Source: Streptomyces vietnamensis | GTDB taxonomy: Bacteria; Actinomycetota; Actinomycetes; Streptomycetales; Streptomycetaceae | Direction of reading: 5' to 3' | DNA length: 64,000 nt | Assembly (NCBI RefSeq): GCF_000830005.1 | Contig: NZ_CP010407.1 | Span: 3,267,001-3,331,000, forward strand | In this document: positions 2,194 to 55,921 of the stretch, piece after piece | How the letters are laid out: each line of letters opens with the position of its first letter | Position numbering within the stretch: position 1 is the stretch's first letter | Position numbers and translations under genes: made by a program | The notes under the pieces: generated by a model | What the model was told of the DNA's origin: nothing | Databases searched by the model: none | The model's input: only the letters and a program-made list of their open reading frames with translations

Positions 2194-3840
2194 TCACACG
2201 TTCGGGGGCGTGCCCTCCAGGGGGCGGCCCAGGACCCCCGGCCGCTGCTGCCAGGGGTGGGGTCCGGCGGGCGGGCGGTAGTCGACGCCGAGGGCGTCCA
2301 GGCGCCGGTAGTGGGTGCGCATGCGGCGCTCGAAACCGGCGTGGTCGCGCGCCTCCGGCGCGGGCAGCGCGGACCAGGCGACCTCGGCGAAGGCGGCGAG
2401 GCGCGGGAAGACCTGGTAGTCGACGCGGGAGCGGTTCTCCATCACCTCGGTCCAGACGTTGGCCTGGGTTCCCAGGATGTGGGCGGCGGCCTCGGGCGAG
2501 AGGCCCGGCGGGACGGGCTCGAAGCGGTAGACGTCCTCCAGGGTGCGGACGTATCCGATGGGCACGGGTTCGTCCTCGCCGGGCGCCTGTCGGTGGTCCA
2601 GGTACACGTGCTGTTCGGGGCACATGACGACGTCGTGGCCGGCCTCGGCTGCGGCGATTCCGCCCGCGTACCCCCGCCAGGACGACACGGCCGCTCCGTC
2701 GGCGAGTCCGCCCTCCAGGATCTCGTCCCAGCCGATGAGGCGGCGGCCGCGGGCGGCGAGCCAGCGGTCGAAGTGGCGGATGAACCAGGACTGGAGGCCG
2801 TCCTCGTCGCCGACCCCGAGTTCCTCGATGCGGGCCTGGGCGGTCGGGGAGGCCTTCCACTGGTCCTTGGGGCACTCGTCGCCGCCGACGTGGACGAAGG
2901 TGGACGGGAAGAGGTCGAGGACCTCCTCGAAGACGCCCTCGTAGAAGCGGAGGACGGCCTCGGTGGGGGCGAGGACGTTGGGGTTGACGCCCCAGGTGTC
3001 CCAGACGGTGAGGGCGGCGGTGTCGACGACGTCGGTGTTGCCGAGTTCGGGGTGGGCGGCGATGGCGGCCTGCGCGTGGCCGGGGAGGTCGATCTCGGGG
3101 ACGACGGTGATGTGCCGCTCGGCGGCGTACGCGACGATCTCGCGGATGTCGTCCTGGGTGTAGAAGCCGCCGTACGGGGTCTCGGTCCAGAGCGGCGAGG
3201 CCCGGTGCCCCCACTTGGTGCGGGCCCGCCAGGCGCCGACCCCGGTGAGCTTCGGGTGGCGCTCGATCTCGATGCGCCAGCCCTGGTCGTCGGTGAGGTG
3301 GAGGTGGAAGACGTTCAGCTTGTGGGCGGCGAGGAGGTCGAGCAGGCGCAGGACGTCGTCCTTGGGCGTGAAGTGCCGGGAGACGTCGAGGAGAAGGCCG
3401 CGCCAGCCGAAGCGGGGGCCGTCCTCGATGGTCACGTACGGGAGGTCCCGGGCCGCGTCCCTCCGCACGGGCGCCTTGCGGTACGCGTCGGGGCCGAGGA
3501 GCTGACGGAGGGTCTGGGCGCCCCAGAACACCCCGGCGGGGCCGCCGCCCTCGATGACGACGGCGGCACCGGGACGCTCGGTGCTCAGGCGGTAGGCCTC
3601 CGGGCCCCGCTCCCGCGCCACCTCCTCGCTGATCCGCAGCCGTACGGCGTGCTCGCCCGCTCCGTCGGCGAACGGCAGCCCGGTGGCGGCGCCGAGCGCG
3701 GCGCGGAGCCAGCGGGCGGTGGACCCGGTGCCGGGTCCGGCGTCGAGCGTGGTCCGCTCGTCGAGCGGGAAACACCCGGCGGAACTCCCCCGGTGCTCCA
3801 CCGACAGCGGTACGGGAATCAGGTCCTGCTCCGACGTCAT
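2194..3840 (-). CDS. Beta-N-acetylhexosaminidase, glycoside hydrolase family 20
   Basis: Removes terminal N-acetylglucosamine from chito-oligosaccharides by substrate-assisted catalysis. The GH20 signature HVGGDECPKDQW supplies the catalytic Asp-Glu pair in a TIM barrel; an N-terminal GH20b-type domain precedes it, and WRGLLLDVSRHF marks the barrel entry. The 548 residues are normal for the family. No signal peptide follows MTSEQDLIPVPLSV, so the enzyme is probably cytoplasmic and acts on imported chitobiose-type sugars. ATG 3838-3840 has GGAGGGGG just upstream; an in-frame extension to 3933 would run through the promoter and is rejected. Upstream lie a -35/-10 pair, a DasR-like site and two TTGCA dyads, which fits amino-sugar-responsive control. 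The gene appears monocistronic. Confidence 0.93.
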   Translation of the reverse strand: MTSEQDLIPVPLSVEHRGSSAGCFPLDERTTLDAGPGTGSTARWLRAALGAATGLPFADGAGEHAVRLRISEEVARERGPEAYRLSTERPGAAVVIEGGGPAGVFWGAQTLRQLLGPDAYRKAPVRRDAARDLPYVTIEDGPRFGWRGLLLDVSRHFTPKDDVLRLLDLLAAHKLNVFHLHLTDDQGWRIEIERHPKLTGVGAWRARTKWGHRASPLWTETPYGGFYTQDDIREIVAYAAERHITVVPEIDLPGHAQAAIAAHPELGNTDVVDTAALTVWDTWGVNPNVLAPTEAVLRFYEGVFEEVLDLFPSTFVHVGGDECPKDQWKASPTAQARIEELGVGDEDGLQSWFIRHFDRWLAARGRRLIGWDEILEGGLADGAAVSSWRGYAGGIAAAEAGHDVVMCPEQHVYLDHRQAPGEDEPVPIGYVRTLEDVYRFEPVPPGLSPEAAAHILGTQANVWTEVMENRSRVDYQVFPRLAAFAEVAWSALPAPEARDHAGFERRMRTHYRRLDALGVDYRPPAGPHPWQQRPGVLGRPLEGTPPNV

Positions 3841-5223: not shown

Positions 5224-6564
5224 ATGACCGGCACAGACGATGTCCTGCTTGTCCACGGCGGAACCCCGCTGGAGGGCGAGATCCGCGTTCGCGGCGCGAA
5301 GAACCTCGTGCCCAAGGCGATGGTCGCCGCCCTGCTCGGCAGCGGTCCCAGCCGTCTGCGCAACGTTCCCGACATCCGTGACGTCCGCGTCGTCCGCGGG
5401 CTGCTCCAGCTGCACGGAGTGACGGTCCGCCCGGGCGAGGAGCCCGGCGAGCTCGTCCTCGACCCGACGCACGTCGAGTCCGCCAACGTCGCCGACATCG
5501 ATGCCCACGCCGGTTCGTCGCGCATCCCGATCCTCTTCTGCGGCCCGCTGCTGCACCGCCTCGGCCACGCCTTCATCCCGGGCCTGGGCGGCTGCGACAT
5601 CGGCGGCCGGCCCATCGACTTCCACTTCGACGTGCTCCGCCAGTTCGGCGCGACCATCGAGAAGCGGGCGGACGGGCAGTACCTGGAGGCCCCGCAGCGT
5701 CTTCGCGGTTGCAAGATCCGCCTGCCGTACCCCTCGGTCGGCTCGACCGAGCAGGTGCTGCTCACGGCGGTCCTCGCGGAGGGCGTCACCGAGCTGTCGA
5801 ACGCGGCCGTGGAGCCCGAGATCGAGGACCTGATCTGCGTCCTGCAGAAGATGGGCGCGATCATCTCCATGGACACCGACCGGACCATCCGGATCACCGG
5901 TGTCGACCGTCTCGACGGCTACACCCACCGGGCGCTCCCGGACCGCCTGGAGGCGGCCTCCTGGGCGTCGGCGGCGCTGGCCACCGAGGGCAACATCTAC
6001 GTGCGCGGCGCCCAGCAGCGCTCGATGATGACCTTCCTCAACACGTACCGGAAGGTCGGCGGCGCCTTCGAGATCGACGACGAGGGCATCCGCTTCTGGC
6101 ACCCGGGCGGCTCGCTGAACGCGATCCACCTGGAGACGGACGTGCACCCCGGCTTCCAGACGGACTGGCAGCAGCCGCTGGTCGTGGCCCTGACGCAGGC
6201 CTCCGGCCTCTCCATCGTCCACGAGACGGTGTACGAGTCCCGGCTCGGCTTCACCTCCGCGCTGAACCAGATGGGCGCGCACATCCAGCTGTACCGCGAG
6301 TGCCTGGGCGGCTCCGACTGCCGCTTCGGCCAGCGGAACTTCCTGCACTCGGCGGTCGTGTCGGGCCCGACGAAGCTCCAGGGCGCCGACCTGGTCATCC
6401 CCGACCTGCGCGGCGGCTTCTCGTACCTGATCGCGGCGCTCGCGGCCCAGGGCACGAGCCGGGTCCACGGCATCGACCTGATCAACCGCGGCTACGAGAA
6501 CTTCATGGAGAAGCTCGTCGAGCTGGGCGCGAAGGTCGAGCTGCCGGGCAGCGCGCTGGTCTGA
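5224..6564 (+). CDS. murA: UDP-N-acetylglucosamine 1-carboxyvinyltransferase (MurA)
   Basis: Transfers enolpyruvate from PEP to UDP-GlcNAc, the first committed step of peptidoglycan synthesis, in the cytoplasm. The protein has 446 residues with the two-domain EPSP-synthase fold. RGAKN (residues 23-27) is the UDP-GlcNAc/PEP site. The catalytic loop reads GGCDIGGRPIDFH with the PEP-binding cysteine at about C124. Because Cys rather than Asp occupies this position, the enzyme is expected to be fosfomycin-sensitive, unlike the mycobacterial version. ATG 5224 gives the normal N-terminus MTGTDDVLLVHGG; the frame is open to 5164 but without a better start. The gene stands alone, divergent from yqgE, and ends in a perfect 18-bp hairpin. 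Confidence 0.95.
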   Translation: MTGTDDVLLVHGGTPLEGEIRVRGAKNLVPKAMVAALLGSGPSRLRNVPDIRDVRVVRGLLQLHGVTVRPGEEPGELVLDPTHVESANVADIDAHAGSSRIPILFCGPLLHRLGHAFIPGLGGCDIGGRPIDFHFDVLRQFGATIEKRADGQYLEAPQRLRGCKIRLPYPSVGSTEQVLLTAVLAEGVTELSNAAVEPEIEDLICVLQKMGAIISMDTDRTIRITGVDRLDGYTHRALPDRLEAASWASAALATEGNIYVRGAQQRSMMTFLNTYRKVGGAFEIDDEGIRFWHPGGSLNAIHLETDVHPGFQTDWQQPLVVALTQASGLSIVHETVYESRLGFTSALNQMGAHIQLYRECLGGSDCRFGQRNFLHSAVVSGPTKLQGADLVIPDLRGGFSYLIAALAAQGTSRVHGIDLINRGYENFMEKLVELGAKVELPGSALV

Positions 6565-6570
6565 TTCTCG

Positions 6571-6608
6571 GACGCCTTACGGGGCCCCGTGGGGCCCCGT
6601 AAGGCGTC
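6571..6608 (+). terminator. murA terminator, perfect 18-bp stem
   Basis: GACGCCTTACGGGGCCCC, a GT loop, then its exact complement, starting 6 bases after the murA stop. No U-run follows, as is common in Streptomyces. Confidence 0.8.
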
Positions 6609-6640
6609 AAGGGCCCGCAAGGGCCCGTACGGGCGCGAAC

Positions 6641-6679
6641 GAAAGGGCGGCCACCCCCTGACAGGGTGGCCGCCCTTTC
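6641..6679 (-). terminator. Terminator of the HU gene
   Basis: GAAAGGGCGGCCACCC (6641-6656) pairs perfectly with 6664-6679 across a short loop. It lies 17 bases downstream of the minus-strand HU stop codon and back to back with the murA terminator. Confidence 0.8.
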
Positions 6680-6696
6680 TGCGCCTCTAGGCAGCC

Positions 6697-6978
6697 TTAC
6701 TTGCCCTTGGCGGCTTCCTTGAGCTTCGAGCCCGCGGAGACCTTCACGCTGTAGCCGGCCGGGATGTCGATCGGGTCGCCGGTCTGCGGGTTACGAGCGG
6801 TGCGAGCGGCACGGTGGGTGCGCTCGAAGGTCAGGAAGCCGGGGATGGTGACCTTCTCGTCACCCTTGGCGACGACCTCACCGACGGTCTCGGCGAGAGC
6901 GGCCAGCACGGCGTCGGCGTCCTTGCGGGTCACCTCGGCGCGGTCGGCCAGGGCGGCCACCAGCTCACTGCGGTTCAT
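6697..6978 (-). CDS. hup: HU-family nucleoid DNA-binding protein
   Basis: Histone-like protein that bends and compacts DNA as a dimer. The 93 residues begin MNRSELVAALADRAEVTRKDADAVL and contain the HU signature GFLTFERTHRAARTARNPQTG, whose proline-tipped arm (NPQTG) inserts into the minor groove. This is the short HU, not the Streptomyces HupS form with a long Lys-rich tail; the C-terminus ends SKLKEAAKGK. The start ATG is preceded by GGGAG at a 7-base spacing. It is flanked by terminators on both sides and is probably transcribed alone. Confidence 0.95.
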   Translation of the reverse strand: MNRSELVAALADRAEVTRKDADAVLAALAETVGEVVAKGDEKVTIPGFLTFERTHRAARTARNPQTGDPIDIPAGYSVKVSAGSKLKEAAKGK

Positions 6979-7325
6979 GTTGTTACTCCCGTGTTCTTCT
7001 TGCCTGTGAGGCGTGCCACGCGGCGGAAGCCGCGCGATTGGGTACAGCGAAGCCGATGCTGCCAGGGCCCTCGGACAGTCCCCGGACCCGGGTCAAATGA
7101 CAGACCCTCGCGCCCAAACACGCATCCTGCCCCCACCAGCGGCGGGAACGCCAATCCGGCACCCCCGCGGGTCACACGAAAAGCGCCAGAGTCCCGTGGT
7201 GGTGACGTTCCGTCGACGCCGCGAAAACAGCGCGGAGCCGAAAAGCCACCCTAAAGGCGGGTTTACGGCTCCGCGAATCGCGACGCGCCGTCAGCGGCCG
7301 CTCGGCGTCCGCTGACGGCGCCCGC
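6979..7325. other. Intergenic region between malic enzyme and HU genes
   Basis: A 347-base non-coding stretch. Its right part holds the malic-enzyme terminator (7285-7321). A second, longer dyad (CGCGGAGCCG at 7231-7240 with CGGCTCCGCG at 7266-7275) encloses a smaller CCACC/GGCGGG-type pairing. The left part holds the HU leader and ribosome binding site. No convincing -35/-10 pair and no small gene was found. Confidence 0.6.
7285..7321 (-). terminator. Terminator of the malic enzyme gene
   Basis: Perfect 12-bp inverted repeat GCGCCGTCAGCG / CGCTGACGGCGC with a 13-base loop, beginning about 5 bases after the minus-strand stop codon at 7326. Confidence 0.75.
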
Positions 7326-8756
7326 TCAGCGGCCGTTCGACGCCGTGCCCGCGCCCGCGGCCTTCGCCGCGTTCCGGACGGCTCCGGCGACCGCGCCGGC
7401 GACCTTGTCGTTGAAGACCGACGGGATGATGTAGTTCGGGTTCAGCTCGTCCTCGGTGACCACGCCGGCGAGGGCGGAGGCCGCCGCCAGCATCATCTCC
7501 GTGTTGACCGTACGGGACTGCGCGTCGAGCAGACCGCGGAAGACGCCCGGGAAGACCAGCACGTTGTTGATCTGGTTCGGGAAGTCCGAGCGGCCGGTGG
7601 CGACGACGGCGGCGGTCTGCCGGGCGGCGGCCGGGTCGACCTCCGGGTCGGGGTTCGCGAGCGCGAACACGATGGAGCCCTCCGCCATGGCGGCGACGTC
7701 CTCCGCGCCGAGCAGGTTCGGGGCCGAGACGCCGATGAAGACGTCCGCGCCGACGACGGCCTCCTTGAGGGTGCCGGTGACGCCCTCGGGGTTGGTGTTG
7801 TCGGCGATCCAGCGCAGCGGCGTGCCGGGGGCGGCGTCGACCAGGTCCTCGCGGCCCGCGTGCACGACGCCGTGGATGTCGGCGACGACGGCGTGCTTCA
7901 CACCCGCCGCGATCAGCAGCTTGAGGATGGCCGTACCGGCGGCGCCGGCACCGGACATGACGACCCGTACGTCGCCGATGCCCTTGCCGACGACGCGCAG
8001 CGCGTTGGTGAGGGCGGCGAGGACGACGATGGCGGTGCCGTGCTGGTCGTCGTGGAAGACGGGGATGTCGAGGGCCTCGCGCAGCCGGGCCTCGATCTCG
8101 AAGCAGCGGGGCGCGGAGATGTCCTCCAGGTTGATGCCCGCGAAGCCGGGGGCGATCGCCTTGACGATCGCGACAATCTCGTCGGTGTCCTGGGTGTCGA
8201 GGCAGATCGGCCAGGCGTCGATGTCGGCGAAGCGCTTGAACAGGGCCGCCTTGCCCTCCATGACCGGCATCGCGGCCATCGGGCCGATGTTGCCGAGGCC
8301 GAGGACGGCGGAGCCGTCGGTGACGACCGCGACGGTGTTGCGCTTGATGGTGAGGCGGCGGGCGTCCTCGGGGTTCTCGGCGATCGCCATGCACACGCGG
8401 GCGACGCCCGGGGTGTAGATCATGGAGAGGTCGTCACGGTTGCGGATGGGGTGCTTCGACGCCATCTCGATCTTGCCGCCGAGGTGCATCAGGAACGTAC
8501 GGTCGGAGACCTTGCCGAGGACGACGCCCTCGATGGTGCGCAGCTGCTCGACGATCTCGTCGGCGTGCGCGGTGGAGGTCGCGGCGATGGTGACGTCGAT
8601 GCGGAGCTTCTCGTGGCCGGAGGCGGTCACGTCGAGGCCGGTGACGGATCCGCCGTGGGACTCCACCGCCGTGGTGAGCTGGGAGACCGCGGTTCCGCTG
8701 GCGGGAACCTCCAGCCGGACCGTCATCGAGTACGAGACGCTGGGCGCCGTTGCCAT
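7326..8756 (-). CDS. Malic enzyme with N-terminal ACT-like domain
   Basis: Oxidatively decarboxylates malate to pyruvate, linking the TCA cycle with pyruvate/PEP pools. The 476 residues contain an ACT-like regulatory domain (about 1-85), then the malic N-terminal domain (IYTPGVARVC, VVTDGSAVLGLGNIGP, FHDDQHGTA) and the NAD(P)-binding domain with the Rossmann motif SGAGAAGTAILK. Cofactor preference cannot be fixed from sequence alone; ACT-containing small malic enzymes are often NAD-linked. The start ATG follows AGAGGA at a suitable distance. Upstream, between this gene and the helicase-like gene, lie a structured RNA and terminator that might attenuate it. It is followed by its own terminator. 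Confidence 0.92.
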   Translation of the reverse strand: MATAPSVSYSMTVRLEVPASGTAVSQLTTAVESHGGSVTGLDVTASGHEKLRIDVTIAATSTAHADEIVEQLRTIEGVVLGKVSDRTFLMHLGGKIEMASKHPIRNRDDLSMIYTPGVARVCMAIAENPEDARRLTIKRNTVAVVTDGSAVLGLGNIGPMAAMPVMEGKAALFKRFADIDAWPICLDTQDTDEIVAIVKAIAPGFAGINLEDISAPRCFEIEARLREALDIPVFHDDQHGTAIVVLAALTNALRVVGKGIGDVRVVMSGAGAAGTAILKLLIAAGVKHAVVADIHGVVHAGREDLVDAAPGTPLRWIADNTNPEGVTGTLKEAVVGADVFIGVSAPNLLGAEDVAAMAEGSIVFALANPDPEVDPAAARQTAAVVATGRSDFPNQINNVLVFPGVFRGLLDAQSRTVNTEMMLAAASALAGVVTEDELNPNYIIPSVFNDKVAGAVAGAVRNAAKAAGAGTASNGR

Positions 8757-8920
8757 GGCCGAGTTCCTCTGCTTTCCCTGAGCTTCGCTGCTACGCCGCC
8801 CCGGCTGGTTGCCTGGCGGCGCCCTCCGATGGTCGCACCTACCCGCCGGTAGCAGGTAATGCGGTCATTTCGTTTTCGGAAAGTAGTTTCCACCATACGA
8901 GAAGTGCTGGGGAAACAGAA
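8757..8920 (-). promoter_or_regulatory. Leader/promoter region of malic enzyme with a short dyad
   Basis: This is the stretch between the terminator hairpin and the malic enzyme ATG. It contains a perfect short dyad, GGAAA-GTAG-TTTCC, at 8878-8891, a possible operator. It is AT-richer than its surroundings around 8856-8895, as expected for a promoter, but I cannot assign a -35/-10 pair with confidence. Confidence 0.35.
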
Positions 8921-8954
8921 GAGGCCCCCGTCACCGGATGGTGACGGGGGCCTC
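8921..8954 (-). terminator. Intrinsic terminator of the predicted small RNA
   Basis: Perfect 14-bp stem GAGGCCCCCGTCAC / GTGACGGGGGCCTC with a 6-base loop, followed on the minus strand by TTCTGTTTCCCC. The pyrimidine-rich tail gives its direction. Confidence 0.75.
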
Positions 8955-9068
8955 AACTTCGTACATACATCTAAGTGGCACCGACCCGCCATGCTCGCCT
9001 CGCGGCAAGTGGTCCCTCTGAGGGACGAAGGTTGGGCCCGGGGGCTTGGATCGAGCCGGTGCCACGAC
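8921..9068 (-). ncRNA. Predicted structured small RNA or leader attenuator upstream of malic enzyme
   Basis: On the minus strand a closing stem GTGGCACCG (9057-9065) pairs perfectly with CGGTGCCAC (8975-8983). Inside are GCTCG/CGAGC, a GTCCCT-CAG-AGGGAC hairpin and a GCC-GCGA-GGC hairpin. A single-stranded linker leads to a 14-bp terminator hairpin (8921-8954) followed by TTCTGTTTC. A GGAAT-N18-GTT promoter ends about 7 bases upstream of the predicted 5' end. The implied transcript is about 148 nt. No open reading frame fits. It could be a free small RNA or a leader whose terminator controls malic enzyme, since GCCCCCGGG upstream could compete for the terminator's GGGGGC arm. Confidence 0.55.
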
Positions 9069-9074
9069 AAGGCT

Positions 9075-9100
9075 AACAAACCACCCTGGCTGGTGATTCC
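9075..9100 (-). promoter_or_regulatory. SigR-type promoter motif
   Basis: On the minus strand GGAAT (9096-9100) is followed by exactly 18 bases and then GTT (9075-9077), the published GGAAT-N18-GTT pattern of the thiol-oxidative-stress sigma factor SigR. Start-point geometry places the 5' end at the base of the structured RNA. A chance match somewhere in the window is expected; the position is what supports it. Confidence 0.5.
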
Positions 9101-9168
9101 AGCGCCACAGGTTGACCTGAAATCGGCGCCGCGGCCCCGGTCGGCCCGGCCCCGCGGCGTCGACCGGC

Positions 9169-11448
9169 TCAGTCCCGCAGCAGGTCCGGGACCCCCGCCC
9201 CGTCCGGCATGTCACGGTCGCCCGCGAGCACCGTGAGCGCCTGGGTGGACCGGGTGAGGGCCACGTACAGCACCCGCAGGCCGGCGGGCGACTCGTCGGC
9301 GATCTCGGCGGGAGAGACGACCACCGTGGCGTCGTACTCGAGGCCCTTCGCCTCCAGGGAGCCGAGGGCCACCACCCGGTCGCCGAGGCCGGCGAGCCAA
9401 CGCGCGGCCTCTTCCCGCCGGTTCATGGCGACGACGACACCGACGGTCCCGTCCACCTCGCCGAGCAGCCGCTCCGCTTCCAAACGTACGGTTTCGGCCA
9501 GATCACCCTTCTCCGCGACGGGGACGAAGCGGGGCTCGACGCCCGTCGAACGGACCGCGCGCGGCGACTCCTTGCCCGGCATGGCGAGGGCGAGGACCTT
9601 GGCGGCGAGCTCGGCGATCTCCGCCGGGTTCCGGTAGTTCACGGTGAGCTCGAAGCGGCGCCGCGGCCGGGAGCCGAGGGCCTCGTCGCGGGCCTCGGCG
9701 GCCTCGTCCGGGTCCGACCAGGAGGACTGCGCCGGGTCGCCGACGACCGTCCAGGTGGCGTGCCGGCCGCGCCGGCCGACCATCCGCCACTGCATGGGCG
9801 TCAGGTCCTGGGCCTCGTCGACGATCACGTGCGCGTACTCGGTGCGCTCGGCGGCGAGCCGCTCGGCCCGCTCCCGCTGGGTCTCCTCCCGTACGGGCAT
9901 CAGCTCCTCGAGGCCCGTGAGCTGGTCCAGCGGGTCGTACTCCCGCTTCTTGCGGGGCCGGGCCGGGGCGCCGAGCAGGGTGTTCAGCTCGTCGAGGAGG
10001 GCGACGTCGTGGACGGAGAGGTCCCGGCGGCGCAGCGAACGCGCGAGCCGCCGCACCTCGCCCGGGTTGAGGATCCGCCGGGCCCAGCGCCCGAGCCGCC
10101 GCTCGTCGGCCATGGCGTCGAGGACCTGACGGGGCGCGAGCTCGGGCCACCAGGCGTCGAGGAAGGAGAGGAACGAGTCCTCGGTCGACACGTCCTCGTC
10201 GAAGGAGGAACGCAGCTCGGCGGCGAGCTCGGGGTCGCTGTGCCGGCCGGCGGCGCCGGACTTGGCGTACAGCGCGTCGAGGAGCAGCCGCCGGGCACGC
10301 GGCCGGAGCAGGTTGACGGGGGCGGTGCCGCCGAGGACGTTGTGGCGGATGCGGCGGAGTTCGTCGGCCTCCAGCTCGAGCCGCCGCCCGAAGGCGACGA
10401 CGCGCAGGAGCTGCGGGGCGTCGGGGCTCTCCAGGGCACCCCGGGCGGCCTTCCGCAGCACGTGCACCATGCGGGAGGAGCCCTTGACGCGGGCGACGGC
10501 GGGCTCGTCGTAGGCGGTGGCCTCGGCGCCGTCGACGAGCGAGCCGACGGCGCGGATCGCGACCTGGCCCTCCTCGCCGAGGGAGGGCAGGACGCCCTCG
10601 GTGTACGAGACGAGGAGCGGGGTCGGGGAGACGATGAGGATGCCGCCCGCGTAGCGCCGCCGGTCCTGGTAGAGCAGATAGGCGGCGCGGTGCAGCGCGA
10701 CGGCCGTCTTGCCGGTCCCCGGCCCGCCCTCGACGTACGTGACGGAGGCGGCGGGCGCGCGGATGACCAGGTCCTGCTCGGCCTGGATGCTGGACACGAT
10801 GTCCCGCATGGTGTGGCTGCGGGCCTGGCCGAGGGCGGCCATCAGGGCGCCGTCGCCGATCACGGGCAGCTCGCGCCCGTCGAGGGTGGCGCGGAGCTCG
10901 GGACGCATGAGGTCGTCCTCGACGCCGAGGACCTGGCGGCCCTTGGAGCGGATGACGCGCCGGCGCACGACGCGGCCGGGGTCGACGGGGGTGGACCGGT
11001 AGAAGGGCGCGGCGGCGGGCGCGCGCCAGTCGATCACGAGGGGCGCGTAGTCGGAGTCGAGGACGCCGATCCGCCCGATGTGGAGGGTCTCGCCGATCTC
11101 GGCGGTGTTGTCGGGGCGTACGGCGTCCTCGGCGGGCTCGACGGAGGTGTAGGCGCCGTCGGGGCCCTTCTTCCCGTCCTTCCCGTACAGCAGATCGATC
11201 CGACCGAAGAGGAAGTCCTCGAACTCGTTGTTGAGCCGGTTGAGGTGGATGCCGGCCCGGAAGACCTGGGCGTCCCGCTCGGCGAGGGCGCCGGGCGTGC
11301 CGACCTGGCCCCGCTGGGCGGCGTCGTTCATCAGGAACTCCGCCTCGTGGATCTTCTCCTCCAGTCGGCGGTAGACCTGATCCAGATGTTCCTGCTCGAC
11401 ACCGATCTCACGGTCTCTGACCGTGTCCACGGCTTCCTGCGCGGCCAC
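9169..11448 (-). CDS. HelD-family superfamily 1 helicase-like ATPase
   Basis: UvrD/Rep-like protein of the HelD type, a family whose members strip RNA polymerase from stalled complexes and, in some actinomycetes, protect it from rifamycins (HelR). In its 759 residues, an N-terminal coiled coil (EQEHLDQVYRRLEEKIHEAE) precedes a domain with VLDSDYAPLVIDWRAP. Then come Walker A GGPGTGKTAVALHR (about 238-251), Walker B VIVDEAQD (about 540) and C-terminal motifs VNYRNP and LYVALTRSTQAL. The start is GTG 11446-11448 with AAGGGGG six bases upstream. No rifamycin-associated palindrome was seen in the 103-base upstream gap, so rifampicin inducibility is not supported. Its 3' end faces the small-RNA region. 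Confidence 0.85.
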   Translation of the reverse strand: MAAQEAVDTVRDREIGVEQEHLDQVYRRLEEKIHEAEFLMNDAAQRGQVGTPGALAERDAQVFRAGIHLNRLNNEFEDFLFGRIDLLYGKDGKKGPDGAYTSVEPAEDAVRPDNTAEIGETLHIGRIGVLDSDYAPLVIDWRAPAAAPFYRSTPVDPGRVVRRRVIRSKGRQVLGVEDDLMRPELRATLDGRELPVIGDGALMAALGQARSHTMRDIVSSIQAEQDLVIRAPAASVTYVEGGPGTGKTAVALHRAAYLLYQDRRRYAGGILIVSPTPLLVSYTEGVLPSLGEEGQVAIRAVGSLVDGAEATAYDEPAVARVKGSSRMVHVLRKAARGALESPDAPQLLRVVAFGRRLELEADELRRIRHNVLGGTAPVNLLRPRARRLLLDALYAKSGAAGRHSDPELAAELRSSFDEDVSTEDSFLSFLDAWWPELAPRQVLDAMADERRLGRWARRILNPGEVRRLARSLRRRDLSVHDVALLDELNTLLGAPARPRKKREYDPLDQLTGLEELMPVREETQRERAERLAAERTEYAHVIVDEAQDLTPMQWRMVGRRGRHATWTVVGDPAQSSWSDPDEAAEARDEALGSRPRRRFELTVNYRNPAEIAELAAKVLALAMPGKESPRAVRSTGVEPRFVPVAEKGDLAETVRLEAERLLGEVDGTVGVVVAMNRREEAARWLAGLGDRVVALGSLEAKGLEYDATVVVSPAEIADESPAGLRVLYVALTRSTQALTVLAGDRDMPDGAGVPDLLRD

Positions 11449-11551
11449 CTAAGGCCCCCTTCTCACGTGCACTGGGCAGCCGTCGAGCGTACGCCACGAG
11501 GGGGCACCGTGTCAGGCGCGGGCCGCAGGCCCACGGCGGGGGGCGGCGGGG

Positions 11552-12766
11552 TCAGCCGTCGTACTTCTGCTCCGGGGGTGCGTCCAGGGCCAGGCGGTAC
11601 CCCCGTTTCACCACCGTCTGGATCAGGTTCGGCGTGCCGAGGGCCGTCCGGAGCCGGGCCATCGCCGTCTCCACGGCGTGTTCGTCGCGCCCCGAGCCCG
11701 GCAGCGCCCGGAGGAGGTCGGCGCGGGAGACGACCCAGCCGGGCCTGCGGGCCAGGAGGCCGAGGAGGGCCATCCCGGCGGGCGGGACGGGCCGCAGGGC
11801 GCCGTCGACGAGGACCGCGTGCCCGCGGATCTCGACGCGGTGGCCGGCGACGGGCAGGACCCGGGCGCGCCCGGGGAGCTCCCGGCAGAGGAGCTGGACG
11901 AGCGGCCCGAGCCGGAAGCGCTCGGGCTGGTACGTGTCGATGCCCTCCGCCTGGAGCGGCAGCGCCGTCACGGGCCCCACGCACACCGCGAGCACGTCGT
12001 GCCGGAGCGCGGCGACGAGTTCGTCCCGTACGCCCTTCTCCGCCGCCCGGGAGAACAGCGACACGGCGGCCGGCGCACTGGTGAAGGTCACCGCGTCGAG
12101 CCCGCGCGCGAGGACCGCGTCGAGGAGCCGGTCGAGCGGGCCGAGGTCCTCGGGCGGCATCCAGCGGTAGACGGGGACGCCGACGACCTCCGCCCCGCCC
12201 GCCGTCAAGGCCTCCACGAAGCCGGGGAGGGGCTCGCCGTGGAGCTGGACGGCGATGCGGCGGCCCTCGACGCCCTCCGCGAGGAGCCGGTCGAGGACCT
12301 CGGCCATGGACTCGGACGAGGGCGACCAGGACTCGGTGAGCCCGGCGGCCCGTACGGCCCCCTTGACCTTCGGGCCCCGGGCGAGGAGCTCGACGCCCCG
12401 CAGCACGTCGAGGAGCTCCTCCCCGCACCCCCACCCCTCGGCCGCCTCGACCCACCCCCGGAAGCCGATCGCCGTGGTGGCGACGACGACGTCCGGGGCG
12501 TGGCCGACGAGTTCCTTGGTGGCGGCGAGGAGTTCGGTGTCGTCGGCGAGCGGCACGATCCGCAGGGCGGGGCCGTGGACGACGGCGGCGCCGCGTCGGC
12601 GCAGCAGCGCGATCAGCTCGTCGGCGCGTCGTGCCGCGGTGACGCCGACCGTGAAGCCCGCGAGGGGGCCGTGTTCTTGCTCGTCCATGGGGCCCGAGCC
12701 TGACGGGGACGCGTGACGGTCCGGGTTCGCGCGTATTTCCTGGTCGTTACGGTCCGCGCCGGGCAT
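11552..12766 (-). CDS. nnaR: HemD-like regulator NnaR (uroporphyrinogen-III synthase fold plus winged helix)
   Basis: A 404-residue two-domain protein. Residues of about 35-290 have the uroporphyrinogen-III synthase fold (LAGFTVGVTAARRADELIALL, VTFTSAPAAVSLF, VCVGPVTALPL). The C-terminus is an OmpR-like winged-helix DNA-binding domain (HAVETAMARLRTALGTPNLIQTVVKRGYRL). This architecture and its place right after narK match NnaR of S. coelicolor, reported to work with GlnR in activating nitrate and nitrite assimilation genes. Seven bases separate it from the narK stop, so it is co-transcribed. ATG 12764-12766 is used; ATG 12686-12688 (MDEQEHGPLAG) is a credible alternative, since the intervening 26 residues look like linker. 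It probably no longer makes haem precursor. Confidence 0.85.
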   Translation of the reverse strand: MPGADRNDQEIRANPDRHASPSGSGPMDEQEHGPLAGFTVGVTAARRADELIALLRRRGAAVVHGPALRIVPLADDTELLAATKELVGHAPDVVVATTAIGFRGWVEAAEGWGCGEELLDVLRGVELLARGPKVKGAVRAAGLTESWSPSSESMAEVLDRLLAEGVEGRRIAVQLHGEPLPGFVEALTAGGAEVVGVPVYRWMPPEDLGPLDRLLDAVLARGLDAVTFTSAPAAVSLFSRAAEKGVRDELVAALRHDVLAVCVGPVTALPLQAEGIDTYQPERFRLGPLVQLLCRELPGRARVLPVAGHRVEIRGHAVLVDGALRPVPPAGMALLGLLARRPGWVVSRADLLRALPGSGRDEHAVETAMARLRTALGTPNLIQTVVKRGYRLALDAPPEQKYDG

Positions 12767-12772
12767 CGGACA

Positions 12773-14128
12773 TCACACCCGCGCGAATCCGGGCCGGGAC
12801 TCCGGCTCCGTGACCGCTTCCACGACATCGGGAACGGTGACCGGCGCCCGAAGGTATACCGCCCAGGTGACCAGCATGCAGGCCGCGTAGAAGGCGAGGA
12901 AGGCGACGAAGGCTGCGGTGCCGGTGCCGGCGGTCTGGAAGGACTGGCGGAAGGCGAGGTTGATGCCGAGTCCGCCGAGCGCGCCGACGGCGCCGATGAG
13001 CCCCATGGAGGCCCCGGAGAGCCGCCGCCCGTAGGCCTCGGCGGGCTCGCCCACCAGCCCCTTGCGGTGCCCCTGGGCGAGGAAGATCGCCGGGATCATC
13101 TTGTACGTGGAGCCGTTGCCGAGGCCGCTGAGGACGAAGAGTCCGATGAAGCCGACGAGGAAGACGGAGAGGGACTCGACGACGGAGGCGTAGATGACGA
13201 CGCCGGTCGCGGCGGCCATCGCGGCGAAGGTCCACAGGGTGATGCGGGCGCCGCCGTGCCGGTCGGCGAGGGAGCCGCCGAGGGGCCGGATGAGGGAGCC
13301 GAGGAGCGGGCCGATGAAGGTGAGGGACGCGGCCTGGAGCGGGGTGCGGCCGAACTGGGTCTGGAGGACGAGGCCGAAGGCGAAGCTGTAGCCGATGAAG
13401 GAACCGAAGGTGCCCACGTACAGGAAGGCCATGATCCAGGTGTGCCGGGCCCGTACGGCTTCCTTCGCGGCCCCGGTGTCGTTCTTCACGGGGGCGAGGT
13501 TGTCCATGAAGAGCGCGGCGCAGACGGCGGCGACGACGATGAGCGGCAGGTAGACGCCGAGCACGATCCTCGGGTGCATCGCGCCGGCGGTGCCGATGAC
13601 GAGGAGGCCGACGAGCTGGACGACGGGGACGCCGATGTTGCCGCCGCCCGCGTTGAGGCCGAGCGCCCAGCCCTTCTTCCGGAGCGGGAAGAAGGCGTTG
13701 ATGTTGGTCATCGAGGAGGCGAAGTTGCCGCCGCCGACGCCGGTGAGCGCGGCGACGAGGACGAAGGTGGTGTACGAGGTGCCGGGGTGCATCACCGCGA
13801 AGGCGAGGCCGGTGGGCAGCAGGAGCAGCAGGGCGCTGAGGATCGTCCAGTTGCGGCCGCCGAAGCGGGCGACGGCGAAGGTGTACGGGATGCGGATCAG
13901 CGCGCCGACGAAGGTGGCGGTGCCGATGAGGAAGAACTTGCCGGCCGGGTCGACCCCGTACTGCGGCCCCATGAAGAGCACCATGACCGACCAGAGGCTC
14001 CAGACGGAGAAGCCGATGTGCTCGGAGAGCACGGAGAAGGCCAGATTGCGCCGGGCGATCTTCTCCCCCTTCTCCCTCCAGAAGGTCTCGTCCTCCGGTT
14101 CCCAGCGTTCGATCCAGCGGCCACCCAT
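12773..14128 (-). CDS. narK: Nitrate/nitrite MFS transporter (NarK/NasA)
   Basis: Twelve-helix major facilitator for nitrate uptake or nitrite export, 451 residues. The two Gly-rich nitrate signature motifs are present: GVGGGNFASSMTNINAFFP in the first half and LSGLGNGSTYKMIP in the second. GLNAGGGNIGVP lies between them. ATG 14126-14128 has a strong GGAGGTG ribosome binding site. The reading frame is open another 1.2 kb upstream through the opposite face of the LysR gene, but that part has no transporter sequence. It is followed seven bases later by nnaR, forming a nitrate assimilation transcription unit. Upstream, GTTAC, GTCAC and GAAAC elements recall GlnR half-sites, although their spacing is imperfect. 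Confidence 0.92.
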   Translation of the reverse strand: MGGRWIERWEPEDETFWREKGEKIARRNLAFSVLSEHIGFSVWSLWSVMVLFMGPQYGVDPAGKFFLIGTATFVGALIRIPYTFAVARFGGRNWTILSALLLLLPTGLAFAVMHPGTSYTTFVLVAALTGVGGGNFASSMTNINAFFPLRKKGWALGLNAGGGNIGVPVVQLVGLLVIGTAGAMHPRIVLGVYLPLIVVAAVCAALFMDNLAPVKNDTGAAKEAVRARHTWIMAFLYVGTFGSFIGYSFAFGLVLQTQFGRTPLQAASLTFIGPLLGSLIRPLGGSLADRHGGARITLWTFAAMAAATGVVIYASVVESLSVFLVGFIGLFVLSGLGNGSTYKMIPAIFLAQGHRKGLVGEPAEAYGRRLSGASMGLIGAVGALGGLGINLAFRQSFQTAGTGTAAFVAFLAFYAACMLVTWAVYLRAPVTVPDVVEAVTEPESRPGFARV

Positions 14129-14262
14129 CTCGCACCTCCACGGAGTCGGATCCCTGATGCGACCGACGCTAGGGAGGGCGCGTTTCAGGCCGGTGCCGTG
14201 AGGTGACGGTAACGGAACCTTGCTCTCACCCGGCGTACGACTCCCCTGTGAGCGCCCCCGTT

Positions 14263-15213
14263 CTACGCGGGCAGGCCGGGCTCCCCCTCGGGCAGCCAGG
14301 AGCCGGGCGGGCGCTCCAGCCAGCCCTCCCGGGCGCCCAGCTCCGCAGCGGCCCGGCGGAGGGCGTCCAGGCCGGGGTGGCGGAGTCCCTTGCGCCACAC
14401 GAGGCTCACGGGCGAGAGGGGGACGGGGTCGACGAGCGGCCGGATCACACAGTCCGGCATGGGCGGGAAGTCGACGACGGCGAGGACCGGGTCGCGGTAC
14501 TTGGCCATGAGCCGACGGAACTCCTCCTTGCCGACGGCGAGCGGCGCGGGCGGGGCGATCTCGATGCCCCGGCCGGCGAAGAGGCGGGCGGCGAGGTCGG
14601 TCCACTCGGGGGTGCGGTCGTTTCCGGCCCCGGCGTAGATCCGCTCTCCGGCGAGGCGGGCGAGCGGCACCTCGGGCAGGCCGGCGAGCGGGTGGTCCTC
14701 GGGGAGGATGACCGCCATCGGCTCGTACCGGACGAACTGGACGTCGAGCCGCGCCCGGAGGCGGGCGTCGAGTCCCCCGTACCGGCCGAAGGAGGTGTCG
14801 ATCCGCCCGGCGAGGATCTCCTGCACGGCTCCGGTGAGTCCGCTCTCGTAGCGGGCCATCAGCTCCTGCTCCGGGGCGAGTTCGCGGGCCCGGCGCAGGA
14901 CGTCCTCCGGGGCGAGGCCGGGGCTGTTGAGGTCGACGAGGAGCGGCCGGGGCGCGGCGCGGAAGGCGTCGTCCAGCTCGTCGTGGGCGGCCAACACCCG
15001 GCGGGCGTACGGGAGGAGGCGTTCGCCGTCGGGGGTGAGGGCGACCTGCCGGGTGGTCCGTACGAAGAGTTCGGCGCCCAACTCGCGTTCCAGGCGCCGG
15101 ATGTCGCGACTGAGGGCCTGCTGGGCGACGAACAGCCGCCCGGCGGCGCGGGTGAAGTGCAGTTCTTCGGCGACGGCGGTGAAGGCGCGCAGCAGGCGGG
15201 GGTCGACGGACAT
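14263..15213 (-). CDS. LysR-family transcriptional regulator
   Basis: A 316-residue regulator with the typical N-terminal winged helix (LLRAFTAVAEELHFTRAAGRLFVAQQALSRDIRRLERELGAELF) and a periplasmic-binding-protein-like effector domain. The start is ATG 15211-15213 (MSVDPRLLRAF); the open frame continues 12 codons further but the homology begins at this Met. It is divergent from the MFS transporter gene across 83 bases, the usual layout for a LysR protein controlling its neighbour and itself. The effector is unknown. Its 3' end approaches the narK promoter region without an obvious terminator. Confidence 0.9.
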   Translation of the reverse strand: MSVDPRLLRAFTAVAEELHFTRAAGRLFVAQQALSRDIRRLERELGAELFVRTTRQVALTPDGERLLPYARRVLAAHDELDDAFRAAPRPLLVDLNSPGLAPEDVLRRARELAPEQELMARYESGLTGAVQEILAGRIDTSFGRYGGLDARLRARLDVQFVRYEPMAVILPEDHPLAGLPEVPLARLAGERIYAGAGNDRTPEWTDLAARLFAGRGIEIAPPAPLAVGKEEFRRLMAKYRDPVLAVVDFPPMPDCVIRPLVDPVPLSPVSLVWRKGLRHPGLDALRRAAAELGAREGWLERPPGSWLPEGEPGLPA

Positions 15214-16603: not shown

Positions 16604-16620
16604 TGCCCACATGGGATGAG

Positions 16621-17011
16621 TGGAGATGGCGGGAATCGAACCCGCGTCCAACGGTGCGGAATCAGGGCTTCTCCGTGTGCAGTCTGGTACGAGTTTCTCA
16701 GCCCTCCGGATCACCCAGACAAGTCCGGAACGGGCTCAGTCACTGTTTGATTTCCCTCCCACCCCCGTGACCGGGGCGAGAGGTTTAGATCCCTTAATGA
16801 CGCCAGGATCCGGGTCGGGACCACCCCCGGGCTGACGCTCCTCACAGAGGCTTCTGTTCGTTACCTAAAATTAGGCAGCGAGGGCGAAGCGGGAGTTATC
16901 GCTCTTGGTGTTGGCGATTATTGGTTGCGACATATGGTTTACGAGATCATTGCCGCTTCCTCGACACGCTTCCCACTGCTTCGACATCCGCTGTCGAAAC
17001 CGATCATCCCC
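16621..17011 (-). ncRNA. ssrA: Transfer-messenger RNA (tmRNA)
   Basis: Rescues ribosomes stalled on truncated mRNA, with SmpB. The 5' end GGGGATGATCGG (from 17011) pairs its first seven bases with CATCTCC at the 3' end to form the acceptor stem. The T-loop GGTTCGATTCC sits near the 3' end. A discriminator A falls at 16621 and no CCA is encoded there (CTC follows), so CCA must be added by nucleotidyltransferase. The resume codon is GCC at 16913-16915. The 391 nt are normal for the genus. The region is clearly lower in GC than its neighbours. smpB lies 114 bases upstream on the same strand. Confidence 0.95.
16871..16915 (-). other. tmRNA proteolysis-tag reading frame
   Basis: From the resume codon GCC (16913-16915) the frame encodes ANTKSDNSRFALAA and ends in TAA (16871-16873). 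The ALAA terminus is the recognition element for ClpXP-type proteases. The actinobacterial tag start ANTK is kept; the middle differs from and is shorter than the S. coelicolor tag as I recall it. Confidence 0.9.
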
Positions 17012-55627: not shown

Positions 55628-55921
55628 GCAGAACTCCGTTCCCGGATCGCCCGGATCGGCTCCTTGGCCGCCGGGCATCTCCCTTTGCACCAGACTCCGG
55701 TGGTTACCGGAGCTCGGACTTGGCGACTTCGCCCTCCTCCTCCCCAGTCGACAAGATCCCCACCCCATCGACAAGAGGTTAATTCGCCCTGAACTCCTGT
55801 CCTGTAGGCGCAACCATGTATTCGGTGAGGCGATGGCATTCGCCATTCCTCACAACCGAACATAGCCCCTTCGGACGGGTGTCGGCACCCGCTACCGCGA
55901 CATACCTCCGCTCGAGTGCTT

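Follow-up and report, generated by a model that had tools for sequence, protein, structure and literature searches.

The window, by which is meant the whole stretch of 64,000 nucleotides that was analysed, carries on its minus strand a HelD-like helicase gene (SCO2952-like; 9169–11448) and a malic enzyme gene (SCO2951-like; 7326–8756), which are the neighbours of the element described here within Streptomycetaceae and which lie outside the conserved unit itself. Between them, and read on the same strand, a GGAAT at 9100–9096 is separated by an 18-base spacer from a GTT at 9077–9075, exactly as an earlier, sequence-only reading had reported; the two have the form of the -35 and -10 elements of a SigR/SigH-type promoter, and both are kept in relatives. 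Nine bases after the GTT begins an element of 91 nt (9065–8975, minus strand), which opens with GTGGCACCGG, ends with CGGTGCCAC, and is identified by conservation searches and covariation as the core of a conserved structured RNA. The sequence-only reading had described this element as closed by a perfect GTGGCACCG/CGGTGCCAC stem, and this stands, except that the full closing helix (P1) amounts to 14 bp, GTGGCACCGGCTCG/CGGGTCGGTGCCAC. The same reading had placed a perfect 14-bp terminator after the element; an intrinsic terminator hairpin is indeed present by sequence and fold (8921–8954, minus strand), with a stem of 15 bp instead of 14 (8954–8940 with 8935–8921), a loop of ATCC, the sequence TTCTGTTT after the stem, and a T-rich tail at 8920–8913. 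Judging from the distance between P1 and the GTT, the transcript would be about 150 nt long, starting near the 5' end of P1 and stopping where the T-tract of the terminator ends (8914–9067, minus strand).

Open reading frames from a mechanical listing overlap the element. The core, however, measures 84 to 94 nt in 60 distant loci, with all three remainders modulo 3 represented, so that reading frames across it are no evidence of coding. Among 30 Streptomyces loci, the downstream hairpin is better than all 30 shuffles in 26, a T-rich tail follows in 13, and the arms of the terminator vary in sequence from locus to locus. In a set of 66 copies, six of them from Streptomyces, the downstream hairpin beats all 30 shuffles in 23 and a T-rich tail is found in 15; a strong downstream hairpin is not general outside the family. 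Further downstream, between the terminator and the malic enzyme gene (8872–8906, minus strand), lies a block CTCGTATGGTGGAA, here followed by TTTCCGAAA, which 21 of the 30 Streptomyces loci have downstream of the core and which looks like an operator-type inverted repeat belonging to a separate, putative promoter region of the malic enzyme gene.

Fold, covariation and distribution of the RNA

The segment 9080–8915 folds with a predicted energy of -89.6 kcal/mol, against -62.6 (sd 4.5) for shuffled sequences (z = -6.0). The core is formed by four helices: a long closing P1 (14 pairs in the model), a C-rich hairpin A, a hairpin B, and a hairpin C capped by a GNRA-type loop, to which a short helix P1a is added. 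All of these are read on the minus strand. The 5' strand of P1, GTGGCACCGGCTCG (9052–9065), pairs with CGGGTCGGTGCCAC (8975–8988), and double-sided changes occur at all 14 of its pairs among 68 sequences. After an AT bulge, the CCA of P1a (9047–9049) pairs with TGG (8991–8989), again on the grounds of fold and covariation. Hairpin A (9036–9045; GCC-CCCG-GGC, with a C-rich loop) is the weakest helix, with 80.9% of its cells paired, while hairpin B (9012–9026; GTCCCT-CAG-AGGGAC) displays compensatory changes of G-C to C-G and of C-G to U-A, and the tetraloop of hairpin C (8994–9009; CTTGCC-GCGA-GGCGAG) appears as GCGA, GAGA or GTGA in relatives.

Compensatory changes in the stems, for which the sequence-only reading had recommended a search, are found in abundance, and the base pairs covary strongly. 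In an alignment of 68 sequences (A3), from which two antisense self-matches (E 0.002 and 0.006) were removed beforehand and which was fitted to the covariance model and hence favours the structure, 91.5% of cells are paired versus 77.2% in shuffles, double-sided changes are present at 24 of 32 pairs, and 292 cells are doubly changed, compared with 97 in shuffles and 30–63 when the partners are slid. A mutual-information scan that is blind to the structure ranks pairs of the structure 1 to 10, and 14 of its top 15 belong to the structure. Moreover, in a MAFFT alignment of the 30 Streptomyces loci, made without any model fitting, a C-G to G-C switch in hairpin B occurs together with a change in the loop. 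Owing to the size of the signal and to the agreement of this unfitted alignment, we accept the covariation in spite of the fitting of A3.

The inner core is almost invariant among the 30 aligned Streptomyces loci. From Streptomycetaceae to Mycobacteriales, the C-rich stretch is the best-kept part besides hairpins B and C, and single-stranded conservation between families is confined to short stretches, C-rich (CCCC-GG) and of the CAA/CAC type. In one family (f14; L234 and L252–L256), a further small hairpin, its loop GAGA or GCAA, can be seen by eye between the promoter and P1.

The four-helix core was detected in all 61 genomes sampled from the genus and, by BLAST, in 60 of 61 genomes of the family, covering 16 of 17 genera; in other families BLAST matches have 73–80% identity over about 80 nt. 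A covariance model built from 30 Streptomyces sequences (R1) has matches in 182 of 394 genomes of the class Actinomycetia, and the rebuilt model (R2), based on 68 diverse sequences, has matches in 236 of the 394, spread over 76 of 137 genera, with no R2 match in the other 158. Forty of the 236 positive genomes belong to the genus itself, 16 have two or more matches, and 10 have matches with E between 7e-4 and 0.01, a range where about 4 are expected by chance. A sample of 296 genomes of the phylum, which serves also as a specificity control, gave R2 matches in 23, of which 22 are inside the class and one is outside it with E = 0.007. One of the families compared (f4) was assigned to Mycobacteriales by inference from PPE genes, found in 6/6 genomes. 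The covariance searches, the covarying helices and the comparison of flanking regions described below establish, at the level of sequence, a family of RNAs in the class Actinomycetia that has a defined predicted fold, a promoter of its own and, in most Streptomyces loci, a terminator-like hairpin.

No family of Rfam 15 reaches its gathering threshold on the window element or in 20 of the 60 distant loci, and relaxed searches of 8850–9180 (E up to 5) and of 6500–14500 (E up to 10) gave only matches far below gathering scores. Elsewhere in the window, Rfam models place a tmRNA gene (RF00023) at 16618–17011 and a raiA-hairpin RNA (RF03059) at 55680–55725, both on the minus strand, and at one distant locus (L243) an ASdes small RNA family match at 2058–2125 is located near that genome's copy. 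A tRNA was considered and rejected, in that ARAGORN finds none in 20 distant copies, and collections of phages and plasmids, from which near records may have been left out, gave no match to the element.

Some known RNAs of actinobacteria invite comparison. RNAs of the Ms1/6S type fold as a long rod with a central bubble, which is not the fold of the element, and for this reason and for its different locus the element was not assigned to them. According to the text available on Ms1 (scr3559), this actinobacterial RNA binds the core of RNA polymerase and is, like the element, structured, widespread and free-standing, and an action in trans, which is that of Ms1, is proposed here; it differs in size, about 230 nt in S. 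coelicolor, and in position, between sco3558 and sco3559 (PMC9130861). The 6C RNA, as described in the text available, consists of two stem-loops with six or more C each (PMC8388888, PMC4046766); it is likewise actinobacterial and C-rich in its loops, whereas the core here has one C-rich hairpin (C4–C5), a long closing helix, a GNRA hairpin and no Rfam match, and was thus not classed as 6C.

The closest link is with scr2952, a small RNA of S. coelicolor (Vockenhuber et al. 2011) that the text available describes as expression-confirmed and as conserved in more than half of the Streptomyces tested (PMC8388888). Its name places it next to SCO2952, which the text available identifies as a HelD gene (PMC8655204) and which is thus like the upstream neighbour in the window; SCO2951 is a malic enzyme gene, and S. 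violaceoruber NRRL S-981 (L208) has the order helD – RNA – malic enzyme. On this basis of name and neighbouring genes, the Streptomyces copy may be scr2952 and has therefore probably been seen already as a transcript. There is one discrepancy, as scr2952 is stated in the same text to be in Rfam (PMC8388888) and the element here matches no Rfam 15 model. The published text found on scr2952 makes no reference to a class-wide family, a structure or a sigma-factor link, and open-licence papers yielded no description of the RNA family, its structure or a link to SigR, although supplementary tables of small RNAs could list the locus.

Promoters of single and paired copies

The published consensus for SigR, as given in the text available, is GGAAT-N18–19-GTT (PMC9205884), and the window element carries precisely these boxes at this spacing. 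The motif alone is unremarkable, with one match in the window where 0.39 are expected and at least one match in 31 of 100 shuffles; what makes it significant is its conservation in relatives and not its rarity in the window. Conservation of the motif, whose loss among relatives would have spoken against the sequence-only reading, is evident in Streptomyces, in other genera of the family and in distant loci. The strict form with a spacer of 18 or 19 is present in 28 of the 30 Streptomyces loci (L001–L030), the GTT is present in 30/30, and the exceptions are L013, which has GGAAA, and L024, which has neither; the upstream flanks of these loci are otherwise dissimilar. Use of a pattern restricted to the core found 119 named loci of Streptomycetaceae among the matches listed, which were reduced to 116 distinct upstreams after two loci with no usable upstream and one duplicate were removed. 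Among these 116, the strict motif with a spacer of 17–20 occurs in 98, and the remaining 18 include near misses (GGGAT, GGAGT) and copies from Kitasatospora that have GTTACATT and lack GGAAT. In 21 loci from other genera of the family, 11 have the strict GGAAT motif and 10 have no GGAAT, some of the latter being of the Kitasatospora type.

A second -10 box, to which the sequence-only reading did not refer, overlaps the first. The last T of the GTT is also the first letter of TAGCCT (9070–9075, minus strand), which has the form TANNNT of a housekeeping-type (HrdB-like) -10 box, and the composite GTTANNNT with this shared T is found in all 30 of L001–L030 and in 116/116 named Streptomycetaceae upstreams among the matches listed, including the 18 that do not have a strict GGAAT. 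A TTGAC-like -35 for this box was not seen by eye. The overlap suggests that the promoter does not serve SigR alone. Five Kitasatospora copies (L119, L121, L124, L141 and L174) have no strict GGAAT and are inverted between helD and the malic enzyme gene; the Kitasatospora copies inspected have GTTACATT at -10, and this lineage seems to have lost the stress-type -35.

The 60 distant loci were chosen for variety among the R1 matches listed, and several are close relatives of each other. Within 60 bases upstream, GGAA[TC]-N17–19-GTT is found in 32 of the 60, while its chance occurrence is 0.09% in flanking stretches and 0.23% under a first-order Markov model; in distant families the enrichment of GGAA[TC] at the correct spacing exceeds a hundredfold. 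Thirteen of the 60 have both the stress motif and TANNNT, 19 the stress motif only, 21 TANNNT only and seven neither, with TANNNT found by chance in 0.5% of flanking pieces in the zone used. In 24 of the 32 loci with the motif, P1 starts 4–11 nt after the GTT, which would put the start of the RNA at the base of P1. Transcription of SigR/SigH type in many lineages, joined to transcription of housekeeping type, is well supported by inference from these patterns. The main text of the RIViT-seq report mentions neither SCO2951 nor SCO2952 nor sRNA.

Genomes with two separate copies offer a further comparison, and seven were examined of the 16 with two or more R2 matches. In six of these the two promoter types are separated, with TANNNT and no stress motif at one copy and GGAA[TC]-N18 without TANNNT at the other; TANNNT occurs by chance in 1.1% of flanking pieces in the zone used for these genomes. 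The stress-type copies of the six continue after the spacer with GTT (four), GCT (one) or CTT (one). In the seventh genome (G139) both copies are of the stress type, and one of them has TANNNT as well. The paralogues of the six genomes differ also within the RNA, for after the C-run the stress-type copies have GGGC(C)TCAC, and the housekeeping-type copies have GGGTCCC in five cases and GGGCCCAA in the sixth (L243). A hairpin apex, GGTAAGCC, was noticed at most 100 nt downstream of five of the six stress-promoter paralogues (L262, L281, L318, L319 and L322; not L260) and of none of the six housekeeping-type copies.

Gene context and proposed function of the RNA

Within Streptomycetaceae the position of the RNA between helD and malic enzyme is kept and its direction is not. 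Orientation was assigned with an exact anchor and verified letter by letter for L033 and others. The RNA is on the same strand as both genes in 30/30 of L001–L030, in seven of nine further loci of the genus and in two of 21 loci from the family's other genera, and it is inverted between them in the remaining two and 19, respectively. For the 119 named loci among the matches listed, the same strand is shared with both neighbours in 96 and 13 more have one neighbour seen, while the RNA is inverted in 10, among them loci from Kitasatospora, one from a Streptacidiphilus and three from records named Streptomyces. As the unit is conserved even when turned round together with its promoter, it appears to be a gene of its own. 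Outside the family the neighbouring genes differ from one family to another: a tblastn search (E up to 1e-10) found neither malic enzyme nor helicase in any of the 60 distant loci, in 39 of which the nearest gene downstream, as defined by a simple ORF caller, is convergent with the RNA.

These observations bear on the proposal, made in the sequence-only reading as one of two possibilities, that the RNA is a cis-acting leader, i.e. an attenuator or riboswitch-like switch ahead of malic enzyme in which GCCCCCGGG would capture the GGGGGC arm of the terminator. The common strand in all of L001–L030 and in 96 of the 119 named loci listed speaks for such a leader, as does a complement of 7 nt to GCCCCCGGG in the window. 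An attenuator, on the other hand, is hard to reconcile with a unit that is inverted relative to malic enzyme in most loci of other genera and in 10 of the named loci listed, and that is found in 60 distant loci where the tblastn search gave no malic enzyme; the same downstream gene and strand are not maintained across lineages. The antiterminator pairing is not conserved either, as GGGGGC is present in only four of the 30 Streptomyces loci, where GCCCCCGGG is invariant, and the longest complement averages 5.9 nt versus 5.4 in shuffled segments. A leader of malic enzyme was consequently rejected; the proposal is already largely refuted, and we regard it as very improbable. One locus counts against a stand-alone RNA, namely L232, where the RNA lies directly against a gene start, in the manner of a leader.

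Two protein families recur beside the RNA. Family c0 (~200 aa) lies just upstream of it in L278, L245 and other loci; when 24 genomes were searched, c0 adjoined the RNA in nine of the 11 genomes that have it, in the opposite orientation in one (G139). Family c2 (~115 aa) is located beside the RNA in several families and in either orientation (L232, L235, L240, L253, L254, L256, L264 and L270), and of its four strong matches in the 24 genomes three are at most 100 nt from the RNA and one is about 1.2 kb away. The two families show no relationship, a single representative taken from each has no match in Pfam or NCBIfam, and neither family was found in G000 or the three genomes of Mycobacteriales that were searched. 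Both were rejected as a universal protein partner.

The other possibility raised by the sequence-only reading, a structured small RNA that has a SigR-type promoter and a terminator of its own, is supported by the conservation of the motif and by the compensatory changes. On the evidence of sequence comparison, the locus probably encodes a structured small RNA that is free-standing and acts in trans, belongs to an Actinomycetia family with no Rfam 15 model and receives both basal and SigR/SigH-type transcription. Under thiol stress, RNA polymerase with SigR (SigH in other families) would initiate at the base of P1; basal transcription by the housekeeping sigma factor would come from the TANNNT box that overlaps the GTT; and the finished RNA of about 150 nt would act in trans. 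Since it is folds and loops that are conserved, with little unpaired sequence kept between families, binding of a protein or ribonucleoprotein through the conserved hairpins and junction seems more likely than long antisense pairing.

Two rival readings accept a free-standing RNA and differ on how it acts or is controlled. It might be a base-pairing RNA, induced by SigR, whose C-rich loop of hairpin A (CCCC/CCCCG) and adjoining CCCAA or CUCAC pair with G-rich ribosome-binding sites, so that targets are repressed or protected in thiol stress. The retention of the C-rich stretch from Streptomycetaceae to Mycobacteriales fits this, and such RNAs are typically induced by stress sigma factors; yet the fold is better conserved than any long single strand, the CCCC-GG and CAA/CAC stretches that persist between families are short for a seed, and hairpins B and C and the GNRA loop are left unexplained. 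We therefore consider base pairing unlikely. Alternatively, it might be a housekeeping RNA whose transcription depends solely on the principal sigma factor, the GGAAT/GTT being incidental or serving another ECF sigma factor. The overlap of TANNNT with GTT in all 116 named upstreams listed, 18 of them with no strict GGAAT, and the 21 distant loci that have TANNNT without the stress motif would be expected of such an RNA, but the more than hundredfold enrichment of correctly spaced GGAA[TC] in distant families, the 19 distant loci with the stress motif and no TANNNT at -10, and the association of the GGAA[TC] promoter with one paralogue in two-copy genomes would not, and this reading appears less probable still than base pairing.

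The SigR/SigH response is a main thiol-oxidative defence of actinobacteria and has been described mostly in terms of proteins. A trans-acting RNA under dual control, the reading preferred here, can be extended, tentatively and as something possible rather than probable, to a core RNA of Actinomycetia with a reach comparable to that of Ms1-like RNAs, one that cells would require in basal quantity, and in greater quantity under thiol stress. Genomes with a single copy, such as those of Streptomyces, would supply both levels from one promoter with overlapping SigR and housekeeping -10 boxes, other lineages would divide them between two paralogues, one with a housekeeping box and the other with a SigH-type promoter, and the RNA would represent a missing non-protein arm of the SigR/SigH regulon. 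A structured RNA with this type of promoter in many families would be a new component of the thiol-oxidative response; it adds a widely distributed RNA family unmatched by Rfam 15, and it illustrates a putative dual-sigma promoter in one lineage and, in another, a division of promoters between paralogues. Other bacteria have small RNAs under the control of stress sigma factors, and the regulatory logic of a stress sigma factor acting on a small RNA would be the same here; the well-known ones pair with mRNAs via exposed strands, whereas the RNA described here is mostly folded and conserved in structure. At one distant locus (L248), two copies of the RNA are arranged in tandem (2888–2979 and 3070–3161), about 90 nt apart.
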